A stretch of DNA of 23,247 nt, from positions 1 to 23,247 of IMG/VR virus record IMGVR_UViG_3300006735_000273, one strand, 5' to 3'. The notes under the pieces were generated by a model. It searched no databases and had not been told where the DNA came from. It saw only the letters and a list, made by a program, of their open reading frames with translations. The DNA comes from a virus. The position numbers and the translations under genes are program-made. Position 1 is the first letter of the stretch. Each line of letters opens with the position of its first letter. Positions 8,972 to 20,390 of this stretch are shown one piece after another.

Positions 8972-9101
8972 TGTTAATCACCTTTTCATTTTTATTTATT
9001 GTTATTACCAGTTCTTTTAATAGGCTACTGATTTTCCCATCATGCTTTTCGGCATAAGTCCACATAGCATTTGCTAAATAAACCCAATCTTCTTTTTTCA
9101 T
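8874..9101 (-). CDS. Small protein of unknown function overlapping ligase
   Basis: A 75-residue protein. Residues 1-42 form a helical, charged N-terminal part (KKEDWVYLANAMWTYAEKH and a second helix); the rest is polar, low-complexity Asn/Asp/Ser/Thr. That second part is written in a different frame over the first 98 bases of the ligase gene, so its composition may be dictated by the ligase. The start has the module GGTGAAGAAGAATGA, giving a strong ribosome binding site and a 4-base overlap with the upstream gene. No family is recognised. The good start signal argues for a real gene despite the long overlap. Confidence 0.55.
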   Translation of the reverse strand: MKKEDWVYLANAMWTYAEKHDGKISSLLKELVITINKNEKVINNDMGKYEQNATSDRPNDTDSTNNSDFTGFGEF

Positions 9102-9448
9102 TCTTCTTCACCGTCAGGCTCATTTAATCTTTGTAAGAGTCTTAAGAAATTGTGCATCATTTGTTCAACAACTACCATTTCTTCTTGTAATCCCCTTTCC
9201 ATAAATCGGTGCATCATATGAATCATAGATGCTTGAGTCATAGCGGGTGCTAATTTGGCTAAAGAATTGTTATTATAAATCTCCCAATAACAAACGAATG
9301 ATGCTCTAGCCAAATAGTTTCCTTTTACTACATCATTATAACCTGCGTTAAAATGGTCTAGTGCGTAGTCTTTTAGACGCTTCTTATTTTGTTTAGCCCA
9401 CTCGTCAAACTTCTTATTGTTTGTTGTAATTAAATATAATTTATTCAT
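9098..9448 (-). CDS. Protein of unknown function, helical
   Basis: A 116-residue helical protein, rich in Met, Asn and aromatic residues in its second half (MTQASMIHMMHRFMERG near 69-85). There are no signal peptide or membrane segments and no recognised domain. It starts at the ATG at 9448, which has GGTGA 5 bases upstream; an in-frame ATG four codons earlier lacks a properly spaced site. It ends in Asp-Gly-Glu-Glu-Glu, codons that double as the ribosome binding site of the following gene. It sits among small genes between a PC4-like gene and ligase. Confidence 0.6.
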   Translation of the reverse strand: MNKLYLITTNNKKFDEWAKQNKKRLKDYALDHFNAGYNDVVKGNYLARASFVCYWEIYNNNSLAKLAPAMTQASMIHMMHRFMERGLQEEMVVVEQMMHNFLRLLQRLNEPDGEEE

Positions 9449-9704
9449 TCTTTTCACCATCCATAAACTCTCTCATAGCCTGATAGAACTTACCGAAACA
9501 AAGGTCAATATGTTCTTTTTGAACTCTACAACCTCTACCACCTTTAGGCGGAACTGTCATTTCATCTTCAACGAATTGTGCAAATAAATCAATTATCTTA
9601 CCTGCACAACTACCAAATCTAGGAACTGCATTGTTCCCATATTGTCTCTCTTCATTTGCTTTTCTCAAACTAATTTTAGCCTGAACTTCACTTACTCTTT
9701 TCAT
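9441..9704 (-). CDS. Protein of unknown function
   Basis: An 87-residue basic protein. There is a polar N-terminal helix (residues 1-22) and a central helix AGKIIDLFAQFVEDEM. A Gly/Arg-rich turn VPPKGGRGCRVQ follows, then a C-terminal helix IDLCFGKFYQAMREFM. No family is recognised. The helix-loop-helix arrangement is faintly like a small DNA- or protein-binding fold, without support from motifs. The ATG at 9704 has AAGGAGAG 7 bases upstream, which decides it over a TTG one codon earlier. It overlaps the PC4-like gene at its start by 17 bases and the next gene at its end by 8 bases. Confidence 0.6.
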   Translation of the reverse strand: MKRVSEVQAKISLRKANEERQYGNNAVPRFGSCAGKIIDLFAQFVEDEMTVPPKGGRGCRVQKEHIDLCFGKFYQAMREFMDGEKNE

Positions 9705-10510: not shown

Positions 10511-12019
10511 TTATTCCTCCACTAATACCGCAACTTCCGTTGAATAAAACAACTGAGCAATAGACATAGCCGCTAAGAAACTATTCTTAGTTACCTTTAC
10601 AGGGTCATATACTCCTGCTTGATGTAAGTCAGAATACATATTTGTCAAGGCATTATATCCCATATTTTTGTTATTCTTTCTTAGATTAGTTAGTTCGTCT
10701 GCATCAAGTTCCTTAAATCCACCATTTTGTTTTAAAACTTCTAGTGGCTTAAGTAAAGCATCACTGAACCATTTCGGCATATCTCCATTATTAGCAATAT
10801 CAAACAAAGTCATACCGCCACCGAGAACAATACCTGATTCTAAGGCCGCCTTAGTTGCATTGAGAGCATCATCTAATCTTTCTTTTGTTTCTCTCATTTC
10901 CATAGTAGAAGAAGCACCAATTTGAATTGTTGCTACTCCACCATTTAAGCGAGAAATACGAGACTTAACTCTTGATAGTTCGTGTCCTTTAAGAGTCTTG
11001 GCTAATTCTTTAAGCCCATTAATTCTTTCTTTAGTGTCTCCTTCTCCACCAATAATAGTTGTTGTTTCTTTAGTGATTACTACCTTACTACAATTTCCTA
11101 AATCGGTTGTTGTAAATACTTTAGGGTCATCTTTGCTTTCTTCAACAAATACATTTCCTCCAATAAGAGTTTTAATATCAGTTAATTCATCAAGTTGAGC
11201 GTCACCAAAATTAGGAGACATGACTACTGCACATTGAACAGTTTTATTTACTAAGTTCATAACTAGATTGTTTAGTGCGCTACCATCCATTCCTTTACAG
11301 AATATAATTAGAGGTTGATTATTAGCAGCAGAAAACTCAAGTAAAGGCATAATGTCTGAAAACTTTCTAAGGCTTAAGTTGCTTAAGAAAATCAACGGGT
11401 TATCAAACTCAACCTTGCCGTTTTCAGTATTGCACATCAAATGACTAATATAACCCTCATTGATTTCCATACCTTCTCTATGAACCATTTCAGTATTGTA
11501 GTTCTTTGATTCTTCAACTGTGACAATACCATCTCTACCGACCATATTCAATGCTTCTTGTATAAGATTTCCTAAATACCTGTCATTGTTTGCAGCAATT
11601 GTGGCTACATTAAGAATATCGGTGTCTTTTACTTGAATAGTTCTATTACCTAATTCATACAATACTTCTTCTCTTAAGGAAAGAAGATTGTTATTCATAG
11701 CATGAGTAGATACTTTGTCATATTTCATTAAAGAATGACACAGTGCTTGAGCAAGAATACAAGCAGTAGTAGTTCCATCGCCTGATTTATCTTGTGCTTG
11801 ACTCGCTAGATTTTGAACCATTTGAATACCCATTTGAACATAAGGGTCTTCGTGACTAATATATTTAGTAATAGTCACACCGTCGTTAATAATAACGGGA
11901 GGGTTATTCTGTAAAATAACTGTCTTTGCTTGTGGCCCTAGCGTCGGTTTAACTGTATTTGCTACTAAATCAATTCCTTGTAATAGTTTTTCTTTGACTT
12001 CTTTTCCTTGTATAATCAT
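10511..12019 (-). CDS. groL: Group I chaperonin (GroEL/Hsp60-like)
   Basis: A 502-residue ATP-driven folding chamber subunit of bacterial type rather than a thermosome. It shows VKPTLGPQAKTVIL (23-36), NDGVTI (45-50), the ATP motif GDGTTTA (80-86), EGMEINEGYIS in the apical domain, LDDALNATKAALESG, and IVLGGGMTLF in the equatorial domain. All follow GroEL closely. It is shorter than E. coli GroEL (about 548), and the C-terminal Gly-Gly-Met tail is absent; the protein ends LVEE. It is encoded directly after a GroES-like gene with an ATGA overlap, as in bacterial groESL operons. It presumably folds viral or host proteins. A group I chaperonin in an otherwise archaeal-type gene set implies lateral acquisition. 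Confidence 0.93.
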   Translation of the reverse strand: MIIQGKEVKEKLLQGIDLVANTVKPTLGPQAKTVILQNNPPVIINDGVTITKYISHEDPYVQMGIQMVQNLASQAQDKSGDGTTTACILAQALCHSLMKYDKVSTHAMNNNLLSLREEVLYELGNRTIQVKDTDILNVATIAANNDRYLGNLIQEALNMVGRDGIVTVEESKNYNTEMVHREGMEINEGYISHLMCNTENGKVEFDNPLIFLSNLSLRKFSDIMPLLEFSAANNQPLIIFCKGMDGSALNNLVMNLVNKTVQCAVVMSPNFGDAQLDELTDIKTLIGGNVFVEESKDDPKVFTTTDLGNCSKVVITKETTTIIGGEGDTKERINGLKELAKTLKGHELSRVKSRISRLNGGVATIQIGASSTMEMRETKERLDDALNATKAALESGIVLGGGMTLFDIANNGDMPKWFSDALLKPLEVLKQNGGFKELDADELTNLRKNNKNMGYNALTNMYSDLHQAGVYDPVKVTKNSFLAAMSIAQLFYSTEVAVLVEE

Positions 12020-12234
12020 TCTTCCACTCCCAGTAAATACTCTACTTTGACAAATATAAGGTCATCATGCGTTGGTGAACGGTGTCTATCATCATAGAGA
12101 ACAATTTTTCCCTCTATCTCAGGATATTTAGGACATGAAAGCACTAAACCCCGACCATCAGTTTTAACCTGAATACCCATAGAAGAAGTAGAGTTTTCTA
12201 GTTCTATAATTGCATAATCACCTATTGCTTTCAT
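12016..12234 (-). CDS. groS: GroES-like co-chaperonin, shortened
   Basis: A 72-residue Cpn10-like protein; cellular GroES is about 97. It begins MKAIGDYAIIEL, like the first GroES strand. The mobile-loop region STSSMGIQVKT retains a hydrophobic tripeptide (IQV, where GroES has IVL) for docking on GroEL. GKIVLYDD resembles the core strand, and the end FVKVEYLLGVEE matches the GroES pattern of x-K-x-x-D-I-L-A-V. The roof hairpin appears shortened. Phage co-chaperonins are often this divergent. It is directly followed by the GroEL-like gene with an ATGA overlap, and its own ATG has GGTGA 6 bases upstream. Context and motif agree, so the call is good although identity is low. Confidence 0.72.
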   Translation of the reverse strand: MKAIGDYAIIELENSTSSMGIQVKTDGRGLVLSCPKYPEIEGKIVLYDDRHRSPTHDDLIFVKVEYLLGVEE

Positions 12235-12506
12235 TCTTCTTCACCTACATCATTTTCTGCTACACGAACCCATGCTTTCTTTCCTTCAGAAACCCATGTA
12301 TATACATGCGTCTTATAAAACTTATCAAGGTCTTTATCTTTTTGAGTTCTTTTAGACCAAGTAATTCCCATGTTATCTCGGCGTTTATTTAAATCATTTG
12401 GATGATTAGCCACATGTCTTTCTGTTCTCTCAGTAAGAGACATTTTTTCATATTCTCTCATAGGTATTTCTTGGTATTTGTGTGCATTACTGTCGCCTTC
12501 CTTCAT
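12231..12506 (-). CDS. Protein of unknown function between JAMM and GroES genes
   Basis: A 91-residue strongly charged protein. A basic, helical middle (TERTERHVANHPNDLNKRRD) is followed by WSKRTQKDKDLDKFYKTHVYTW and a strand-like AWVRVAEN. No domain is recognised. It has no cysteines, so it is not an obvious E2-like or zinc protein. The start lies in an ATGA overlap with the JAMM gene stop, behind GTGAAGAAGA. The end again forms the Gly-Glu-Glu-Glu/ribosome-site module of the GroES gene. Its position between the protease and the chaperonins suggests a protein-homeostasis link, without direct evidence. Confidence 0.6.
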   Translation of the reverse strand: MKEGDSNAHKYQEIPMREYEKMSLTERTERHVANHPNDLNKRRDNMGITWSKRTQKDKDLDKFYKTHVYTWVSEGKKAWVRVAENDVGEEE

Positions 12507-13108
12507 TCTTCTTCACTACTCCATGTTTGTGTTCTTGTATGAGAATTACTCTCATAAATATCTAGTTGATTAGGACTATTAACTGTCCAAAAACCATAAT
12601 GACCTTCACCGCCAAGAACATACGCAGTTTCCATCATAGGTTTATTATTAAATCCAGCAATATTTTGCCAAATTGAAACAGTATTAATATCTGTTCCGCT
12701 AAAATATGCCGCACCAAATGGGTGAGTATGAATCCAACAACGGATAGGAAATACTACACCATTAGGTAGTTCAAACTTTTCAAACTCTACATAGCCCGAA
12801 GAACCAGTTGTCACGAAACAATTATTCTTTCCATCAATAACAACTTGAACTTCAAGATTAGGTAGAATAACAGTGGATGCTTCCCAAATATCTGCATGAA
12901 AAGATAAATCATGCTGTGCAACATCTAATACATCTTCAAAAGGAACACCACAACTAATGGCGTTTTCAGTGGCGATTCTATTAAATGAATCTTCAATAAA
13001 AGTAATTGCTTCTTTTCTCATATCCTGCATTTGATTTTCATATTCAACCATCATTTCAAAATCCTTTATTAGTTTATCATCATTTTTATTTTCATTCCCA
13101 TTACCCAT
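12503..13108 (-). CDS. JAMM/MPN metalloprotease (deubiquitinase-like)
   Basis: A 201-residue protein with the full JAMM motif: His127 and His129 in IHTHPFGAAYFSGTD, Ser137 and Asp140. The spacing is identical to that of Rpn11-type enzymes (HSHP-x6-SGxD), so the zinc ligands and Ser are intact. The catalytic Glu should lie 40-60 residues earlier; Glu76 or Glu86 are candidates. Residues 1-55 are a helical N-terminal extension. JAMM enzymes cleave isopeptide bonds or trim residues after the Gly-Gly of ubiquitin-like precursors. Two genes upstream is an E1-like enzyme, and a ThiS/ubiquitin-like protein ending in GGNL is encoded at 20145. The start at 13108 is chosen for GGGGTGA 5 bases upstream over a GTG at 13117. 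Confidence 0.85.
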   Translation of the reverse strand: MGNGNENKNDDKLIKDFEMMVEYENQMQDMRKEAITFIEDSFNRIATENAISCGVPFEDVLDVAQHDLSFHADIWEASTVILPNLEVQVVIDGKNNCFVTTGSSGYVEFEKFELPNGVVFPIRCWIHTHPFGAAYFSGTDINTVSIWQNIAGFNNKPMMETAYVLGGEGHYGFWTVNSPNQLDIYESNSHTRTQTWSSEEE

Positions 13109-13113
13109 GATTT

Positions 13114-14082
13114 TCACCCCTGCATCTTGGCTTTCATCTTTGCTATACGCTTGGCTAACTTGGCCTGTTTTCGGGCCTTACGGCGTTCTCTACGGCTCAA
13201 TTTAACCGGCTTTGACTCGGCTTCCTTTCGGGCCTTAATCTCAATTGAGGCTCTCATAAGCATCTCTTCATGCTTAGGTTGTGTGCTATCAACCAACTTT
13301 TCTAAGCGGGTTGCGATAACTCCGTATGAACGATTATACCTATTTCGGGCTTGGTCTATTGAAAGTTCATAAAAGTTACAAACTAAATCATAATCTTCTT
13401 CTTCTGTCCAACGAGGGGTATAAGTTTTCTTAGCCTTTGTTGTTTTCTTCCGAGGCTTTGGCGATTCTGCTGGTTTTGTTGCATTCTTAGCCGCTTTCTT
13501 ATTCTTAGTCATGTTAATCTTATGATTATACATTCGTTGCTTTACAGCACTGGAACTCTTACCTATCTTTTCAGCGTAGGCAATTTGTTCTTTACCACTA
13601 GTAATGGTAAAGAGTCCAGCGTGTTCTTCTTCTGTCCACTTTTTATTGTGGATTCCTTTTCTGTTTGTTCTTGTTTTCATATTATTCACCATATTTTCTT
13701 TTATCTTATTCTTCAAGATTTCTTGTTGTTTTTGAACTGCTTTTTCAATTTGTAGTCTTTCATTGGTGGGGTTGCAGTTCTTTATAACCCACTCAACTTG
13801 TTTAGCATTAATTGTTCTACCAAATAATTCTTTGAAACCTTGTTTTGTTTTCTTTTGGCCTAAAGAATTAAGGAAACAACCATGTATGTAATCAATTTCT
13901 TCTTGTGTATAAGGTTGTTTCAAAATAACCGTTCTGAAGTGTGTAGAAAGCCCATTTGCATTTTTCTTAGTGTTAAACTTTTTATTAAAACCAGTGGCTA
14001 TTCTAGCCCAAGTCCATTGGTAAGCAGTTCGCTTTACTACAATATAAGCATTCATTTCATCAGTCCAATTAAACTTATTCAT
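13114..14082 (-). CDS. Myb/SANT-like repeat DNA-binding protein with basic tail
   Basis: A 322-residue, very basic protein. Three to four Myb/SANT-like helical repeats are visible near residues 4-50 (NWTDEMNAYI ... WARIATGF), 57-101 (PYTQEEIDYIHGCF), 147-188 (KKWTEEEHAGLF ... KSSSAVKQRMYNHKI) and 223-263 (PRWTEEEDYDLV ... SYGVIATRLEKL). Repeats 3 and 4 are the clearest, with W-T-E-E-E and a third helix of the S-x-x-x-V/I-x-x-R type. A Lys/Ala/Pro linker at 191-222 and a Lys/Arg tail at 294-320 resemble chromatin proteins. It probably binds DNA as a regulator or architectural protein. It sits between the E1-like and JAMM genes, overlapping the E1 gene by 4 bases behind a strong GGTGGTGA site. 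Confidence 0.6.
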   Translation of the reverse strand: MNKFNWTDEMNAYIVVKRTAYQWTWARIATGFNKKFNTKKNANGLSTHFRTVILKQPYTQEEIDYIHGCFLNSLGQKKTKQGFKELFGRTINAKQVEWVIKNCNPTNERLQIEKAVQKQQEILKNKIKENMVNNMKTRTNRKGIHNKKWTEEEHAGLFTITSGKEQIAYAEKIGKSSSAVKQRMYNHKINMTKNKKAAKNATKPAESPKPRKKTTKAKKTYTPRWTEEEDYDLVCNFYELSIDQARNRYNRSYGVIATRLEKLVDSTQPKHEEMLMRASIEIKARKEAESKPVKLSRRERRKARKQAKLAKRIAKMKAKMQG

Positions 14083-14636
14083 ACATTCACCACCATATAT
14101 TCTCGCACTTCTTCATCATTCATATATCTTTGAATCCATTGTGCGCCAATTCCTGCAATTGCGACTTGCATGAAATGAACATTCTTATTTGTTCCATCCC
14201 ATGAATCTCCTTGACATGAATATGACCTATCATCACCCGCTAAAAGCATATCATACATTTTTGGGTCGGCCTTATGACTCACAAGTGCGGCGTTCCTACC
14301 TTGCGCTCTTAAGTCAAGCCATTTAAGACTTGTGTTGTATAAAGTTCTTCTTACTCCCAAGTTATCAACACAGCAAATCACCAAATCATATCCTGTCATT
14401 TGTCTTTCAGTTAATACTGGGTATTTACTGAAATGTTCAACTGATTTGTAAGAATCCATCATAACACTTGCTTTATTCTGTCCAACATGAGACTTCTTAA
14501 AGTTTTGGTAAGTTAAGTTCTTTGCTTCTACACTATCGGGGTCTGCAACAGTAATGTTATACATTCCCACTTTATCTAAGAACTGAACCAAAAATGACCC
14601 AATCCCGCCTGTTCCTATAATTAATATTTTTCTCAT
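14079..14636 (-). CDS. E1-like/ThiF-family adenylyltransferase
   Basis: A 185-residue Rossmann-fold enzyme of the ThiF/MoeB/E1 superfamily, which adenylates the C-terminal glycine of ubiquitin-like proteins. It has GTGGIGS (8-14), Asp32 in VADPDSV, Asn40-Leu41 and Gln44 in NLTYQNF, VGQNKA (51-56) with Lys55, and ICCVDN (87-92) with Asp91 followed by Arg96/97. The conserved Arg of the NLxRQ motif is Tyr43 here. Cys141 in SYSCQ is a candidate catalytic cysteine, in a place resembling that of ThiF proteins of the PRTRC type. There is no CxxC zinc site and no fused domain, and it is shorter than MoeB (about 250). The start has GGAGGAATAAATATG. It heads an array with Myb-like and JAMM genes. Confidence 0.85.
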   Translation of the reverse strand: MRKILIIGTGGIGSFLVQFLDKVGMYNITVADPDSVEAKNLTYQNFKKSHVGQNKASVMMDSYKSVEHFSKYPVLTERQMTGYDLVICCVDNLGVRRTLYNTSLKWLDLRAQGRNAALVSHKADPKMYDMLLAGDDRSYSCQGDSWDGTNKNVHFMQVAIAGIGAQWIQRYMNDEEVREYMVVNV

Positions 14637-20144: not shown

Positions 20145-20351
20145 TCAAAGGTTTCCTCCGACAATTGCGGGTGTCAAATCAACTGATGTTACTTCATCCC
20201 AGTTAATTGATGCGATTTCTTCTCTAGCAACCATTTCACCATCAATAAAAGCCCAATGGGTCGGGTGGTTGTTAATTTGTTCAATAATGGCTTCATTGTC
20301 CATCATTACTTCTGTGTGTCCTGTTTCATTCATAATTCTTAATTTAATCAT
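20145..20351 (-). CDS. ThiS/ubiquitin-like beta-grasp protein with masked C-terminal Gly-Gly
   Basis: A 68-residue protein with a beta-grasp-like order: strand KLRIM, turn NETG, strand HTEVMM, helix NEAIIEQINNH, strand WAFIDGEMV, a turn region and strand TSVDLTPAIVGG. It ends GGNL, so the di-glycine needed for activation is capped by two residues, as in ubiquitin precursors. The distance from Met1 to the Gly-Gly is 66 residues. From memory this equals E. coli ThiS, and the last 33 residues align with it without gaps, sharing V-x-R-E and the I-x-G-G end. A matching E1-like enzyme (14079) and JAMM protease (12503) lie in the same window. It has its own TATA box and a downstream terminator-like hairpin; GGAAGTGA precedes the ATG. 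The similarity needs structural confirmation. Confidence 0.6.
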   Translation of the reverse strand: MIKLRIMNETGHTEVMMDNEAIIEQINNHPTHWAFIDGEMVAREEIASINWDEVTSVDLTPAIVGGNL

Positions 20352-20390
20352 CTTAATTCACTTCCTGTGTGTTCTCTCTACTTCTTCCAA

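Follow-up and report, generated by a model that had tools for sequence, protein, structure and literature searches.

The stretch of DNA analysed here, called the window below, comprised 23,247 nucleotides, positions 1 to 23,247 of the IMG/VR virus record IMGVR_UViG_3300006735_000273. On its minus strand, at 20145..20351 (stop codon included), it encoded a protein of 68 residues, MIKLRIMNETGHTEVMMDNEAIIEQINNHPTHWAFIDGEMVAREEIASINWDEVTSVDLTPAIVGGNL*. We refer to this protein as Ubl, a putative ubiquitin-like precursor with a predicted beta-grasp fold, based on its translation, homologues, AlphaFold and Foldseek. Two GGA codons at 20154..20159 (minus strand) encoded Gly65-Gly66, and were followed by a C-terminal tail of two residues, Asn-Leu (20148..20153, minus), which, given the variable tails of the homologues, is predicted to be removed by cleavage. 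Upstream of the Ubl ATG there was a sequence resembling a ribosome-binding site, AGGAAGT (20360..20366, minus), with a purine-rich counterpart in the homologues. The same strand encoded a minimal ThiF/E1-type adenylyltransferase of 185 residues (E1, 14079..14636) and a JAMM/MPN+ metalloprotease of 204 residues with a GTG start (JAMM, 12503..13117).

Profile matches in the window were to GroEL, ThiF and ribonucleotide reductase, and further ORFs were read by us as presumably clamp-loader, ligase, PCNA-like and TFB-like genes. A bacterial-type GroEL (502 residues) with a GroES-like neighbour, at 10511-12234, adjoined the JAMM gene; GroEL/GroES have already been described for magroviruses. Judging from gene content, the viruses carrying Ubl appear to be magroviruses (Magrovirales), tailed viruses of Poseidoniales. 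Poseidoniales, as the proposed hosts, belong to the most abundant archaea of the surface ocean. The gene content fits the Magrovirales described as viruses of Poseidoniales (PMC10768690). The main texts searched of magrovirus papers after the founding one made no mention of ubiquitin or ThiF.

The first-pass annotation had compared Ubl with the sulfur carrier ThiS of Escherichia coli, whose sequence we confirmed against PDB 1f0z. The position of the Gly-Gly was as claimed, at residues 65-66 in both proteins, and the ungapped alignment gave exactly nine identities over the last 33 residues, including V-x-R-E and I-x-G-G. Over the whole length, 12 of 66 residues were identical without gaps. This likeness was equalled by ~0.2% of shuffles in which the GG was kept fixed. 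When scored with the Ubl profile, nine of 1000 shuffled ThiS sequences reached the score of the real one. Since the real score falls within the tail of the shuffled controls, the pairwise likeness to ThiS is weak by itself. The ThiS family (PF02597) had no match at an E-value of 0.1 in 21 viral records, in a search in which the controls matched, and the window Ubl differs from the ThiS-family end by its two residues beyond the GG. The length shared with ThiS is a likeness in size only, and that Ubl is ThiS itself is unsupported, with neither a ThiS-family profile match nor a thiolation partner found in the 21 records.

It is the homologues that provide the decisive evidence for Ubl, the pairwise likeness to ThiS being suggestive only. 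A first scan of IMG/VR with Ubl recovered 80 loci with 59-84% identity. Together with the loci found through other queries, these formed a set of 94 distinct ORFs from marine viral contigs, all 94 of which had the Gly-Gly followed by 0-4 C-terminal residues. The GG was therefore invariant, and the tail varied both in length and in sequence (SL, NY, Y, C, HC and NEEE, among others), with 19 of the 94 ORFs ending exactly at GG. Among the 84 distinct coding sequences, the tail had two residues in 59, one in eight and none in 17. The conserved core consisted of N-E-T-G-H-T, H-P-T-H-W-x-F, R-E and V-D-L-T-P-A-I-V-G-G, and the GG was retained even in diverged members (for example ...LLMPGMQGGGNQ). 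The gene was under purifying selection, with a median pN/pS of 0.29 for the 84 coding sequences.

The two Gly codons of the window read GGAGGA, resembling the core of a Shine-Dalgarno sequence, and the GG could have been kept merely as a ribosome-binding site for the downstream gene. Against this, only 27 of the 84 coding sequences had GGAGGA, and the next start codon in the window lay 58 bases past the Ubl stop. GGA, GGC, GGT and GGG were all used at each of the two positions, so the GG is conserved as protein. This codon usage rules out the Shine-Dalgarno explanation, to which we assign a negligible probability.

Outside the marine viral contigs, matches were scarce. INPHARED phages gave no match to Ubl or JAMM, and a nucleotide search returned only chance pieces. 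In cellular genomes there were only two Ubl matches, on two contigs of a single metagenome-assembled genome labelled Altibacter (EAC109), which are probably due to viral contamination of the bin.

Ubl is confidently predicted to have a beta-grasp fold. AlphaFold2, run on the Ubl alignment (shallow, with a Neff of 1.8), gave a model with a pLDDT of 88 and the elements E-E-H-E-E-H-E, in beta-grasp order. Foldseek listed 50 matches in the PDB, all of them ubiquitin-like or sulfur-carrier chains (ubiquitin, SUMO, NEDD8, ISG15, MoaD-type proteins and TtuB) or complexes of these, with the best TM-score among them (0.54/0.56) for the sulfur carrier TtuB. The E-values were modest (about 0.015-0.08 in the PDB, at best 1.3e-3 in BFVD), as expected because Ubl has just 68 residues. 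Among the viral models of BFVD, the better matches included ubiquitin-like proteins of giant viruses and phage tail tip proteins. Both checks suggested in the first-pass annotation, for an invariant GG with a variable tail and for a fold of the ubiquitin/ThiS type, thus had a positive outcome. A sequence-profile search of the PDB with Ubl gave nothing significant.

No family naming Ubl was found in Pfam, NCBIfam, PADLOC or PHROGs, where the only recurrent weak match was PinA, the Lon protease inhibitor of phage T4. PinA was the best Pfam match, obtained for 19 of 42 Ubl members with a best E-value of 1.4e-4, and T4 PinA scored 13.9 bits with the Ubl profile over residues 8-50 (window 20202-20330), compared with 10.8 bits for the best shuffled copy. 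The window Ubl itself reached 17 bits with PinA (PF10465), below the curated cut-off of 27, and a chance match is expected from the best of 24,736 models. The match spans 43 residues and omits the invariant C-terminal part of Ubl, and a relationship with PinA would leave the GG, the E1 and the JAMM unexplained. We consider such a relationship very improbable. For a comparison of folds, the PDB search returned no PinA relative.

The E1 was recognized by the Pfam ThiF model (1.6e-18) and by profile matches in the PDB, the best being UBA5 (3.6e-9), which activates a protein modifier, followed by MccB, Cap2, UBA3 and MoeB. In NCBIfam, ThiF models were the best matches, far below their cut-off, and the model for the SAMP-activating E1, which has a cut-off of 450 bits, gave a score of 32. 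Invariant in the E1 alignment were G-x-G-G-I-G, the Rossmann nucleotide-binding motif, as well as N40, K55, D91 and Cys141. The last of these (codon at 14214..14216, minus) lies in an S-C-Q motif and is a candidate catalytic or structural Cys. Among 124 distinct E1 ORFs, 121 had S-C-Q; the other three were two E1s of crAss-phages and one ORF that was cut off. Tyr43 (codon at 14508..14510, minus), also invariant in the alignment, presumably occupies the position of the phosphate-contacting Arg of ThiF/MoeB-type enzymes (Arg73 in MoeB). The N-terminal segment of MoeB is, as we take it, absent from the viral E1. Due to this absence and to the Tyr replacing the Arg, adenylation by the E1 is not assured.

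The JAMM gave a Prok-JAB match of 0.007, and profile matches to AMSH-like proteases and Rpn11. Its AlphaFold model had a pLDDT of 84. MPN folds dominated the Foldseek results, led by Rpn11, AMSH, CSN5 and PfJAMM1, with low TM-scores. Of 117 distinct ORFs, 116 had the complete active-site motif H-T-H-P-x6-S-x2-D (12689..12730, minus), and the remaining one was cut off. E89 (codon at 12851..12853, minus), a candidate catalytic Glu, was invariant in the alignment together with H130, H132, S140 and D143, giving the site E ... H-x-H-x7-S-x2-D. The motif was still intact in 20 distinct Ubl/JAMM pairs in which Ubl already ended at GG, suggesting that JAMM does more than trim tails, as expected for deconjugation. 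Many proteins of these viruses, among them those encoded in the window at 12503-13117 (JAMM), 12231-12506 and 9098-9460, ended in Glu-Glu-Glu directly ahead of an overlapping next gene. These common ends look like the in-frame translation of a Shine-Dalgarno sequence and not like a shared tail signal.

The three genes were strictly coupled. All 30 long Ubl-bearing viral records carried both E1 and JAMM. Where an E1 locus had 7.5 kb or more of upstream sequence, Ubl was on the same strand (174 of 174 loci), and where it had 3 kb or more downstream, JAMM was present (250 of 250 loci). The E1 loci overlap in part, some contigs contributing several of them, and they all belong to related viruses, so these counts show strict co-retention, not independent gains. 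The constant co-occurrence may partly reflect shared ancestry. It had been proposed from the tail alone that Ubl needs a protease, and this gained strength from the JAMM and E1 in the same window, both kept with Ubl at every testable locus.

The coupling also bears on a non-covalent role of Ubl in tail or capsid assembly, similar to lambda tail protein I with its JAB/NlpC partner, protein K. A precedent for such a role is phage tail protein I, a Ub-like domain that is paired with a JAB protein (PMC1779556), and models of tail tip protein J were among the BFVD matches of Ubl. Counting against it are the presence of an E1, strictly coupled to Ubl, and the gene neighbourhood, which is one of ribonucleotide reductase and chaperonin genes and no tail module. 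We therefore regard an assembly role as improbable.

Our preferred explanation, which we consider probable, is that the product of the Ubl ORF is the precursor of a ubiquitin-like modifier supplied by the virus, and that Ubl, E1 and JAMM form a three-gene kit conserved in magroviruses. What we computed were the predicted fold of Ubl, its invariant GG and variable tail, the identity of E1 and JAMM with most of their active-site residues, and the coupling of the genes. Tail cleavage, adenylation, conjugation and the targets of the viral Ubl we infer by analogy. CsRpn11, a JAMM protease of the archaeon Caldiarchaeum, cuts a ubiquitin precursor precisely behind its GG and is active on conjugates as well (PMC6043591), and the scheme of trimming, activation, attachment and release follows from the analogy with CsRpn11 and its substrate CsUb. 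JAMM would cut off the tail of 0-4 residues and expose the Gly-Gly, which the minimal E1 would adenylate. The activated Ubl could then be joined to viral or host proteins, either directly or via a host factor, and the same JAMM could undo the attachment. We propose direct attachment or a host factor because no virus-encoded E2 was detected: a search with UQ_con in 21 viral records gave no match, though the controls gave none either. A more specific version, which we hold tentatively, is that the kit serves a self-contained, E2-independent and reversible tagging of archaeal-host or virion proteins during infection, with the active site of the E1 reorganised around a Tyr.

The main rival is that Ubl is a sulfur carrier, which JAMM would mature and the E1 would adenylate, with a host sulfurtransferase forming the thiocarboxylate and the sulfur going into tRNA, DNA or a metabolite. 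Models for a JAMM-matured sulfur carrier are QbsE/QbsD/QbsC and CysO/Mec+, and some archaeal Ubls serve both as modifier and as sulfur carrier. This possibility is consistent with the ThiS-like length and C-terminal half of Ubl, with TtuB having the top TM-score among the PDB matches listed, and with ThiF models being the best for the E1 in NCBIfam, yet far below cut-off. In addition, ThiS/MoaD-type systems with JAB genes exist as a precedent (PMC1779556). In contrast, Ubl had no ThiS-family match, and neither an ATP_bind_3 thiolase nor a rhodanese or PAPS reductase was found in 21 long viral records, in searches in which the controls matched. Thiolation enzymes could come from the host. Overall, we judge a sulfur carrier to be a real but unlikely possibility. 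Because Ubl, the activating enzyme and the protease are all virus-encoded, the virus probably either tags proteins or moves sulfur with a kit of its own.

The kit is best regarded as a virus-borne version of known Ubl-E1-JAMM systems and should not be classed as ThiS. In the thioquinolobactin system QbsE/QbsD/QbsC, which functions in siderophore biosynthesis, the sulfur carrier ends in GG plus two residues, is trimmed by a JAMM protease and comes with an E1. The tail, JAMM and E1 are thus alike in the viral kit, whereas for the viruses no thiolation partner was found. Archaeal cells are known to carry out ubiquitin-like tagging; from archaeal mobile elements, it is mainly deconjugating proteases that are known. 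CsUb/CsRpn11 of Caldiarchaeum subterraneum likewise combine a beta-grasp precursor having residues past the GG with a JAMM/Rpn11-type protease, but CsUb has a nine-residue tail and a full E1/E2/RING cascade (PMC6043591), compared with a tail of 0-4 residues and no E2 found for the viral Ubl. SAMP1/UbaA/HvJAMM1 of Haloferax volcanii are similar in having a Ubl, a single E1 and a JAMM in Archaea, without a known E2 (PMC4443979). They are cellular, and the viral E1 is far from the SAMP-activating type by the NCBIfam score given above. Borgs carry JAMM proteases (deSAMPylases) on an archaeal mobile element, mostly in multiple copies and in one Borg with a SAMP (PMC12660748), unlike the one conserved Ubl/E1/JAMM set of magroviruses.

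Bacterial E1-E2-JAB anti-phage systems (Cap2/Cap3, Bil) share the E1 profile likeness and the logic of JAMM deconjugation; they are host defences with an E2, whereas the magrovirus kit is virus-encoded and has no detected E2. In crAss-like phages (crAss001 gp76/gp77), a phage E1 stands beside a weakly PRTRC_A-like protease, in a PRTRC-like arrangement. Their E1 is larger and has an N-terminal extension, the Ubl profile had no match in two crAss-like phages with an E1, and the magrovirus JAMM matched no INPHARED phage. At two crAss-like loci, the E1-type gene directly followed a JAB/PRTRC_A-like gene (L193, 4256-6654; L194, 3551-5660).

Kept together across magroviruses, Ubl, E1 and JAMM would suggest an archaeal virus with its own tagging or sulfur-transfer cycle. 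The kit also offers a test of the minimum for Ubl activation, since its E1 has 185 residues and lacks the usual Arg and no E2 was detected, and its three short, expressible genes come with sharp predictions. One record, IMGVR_UViG_3300021958_000021 (184,733 bases), had two different Ubl/E1/JAMM sets and about twice the normal magrovirus length, and possibly represents two viruses joined in assembly.
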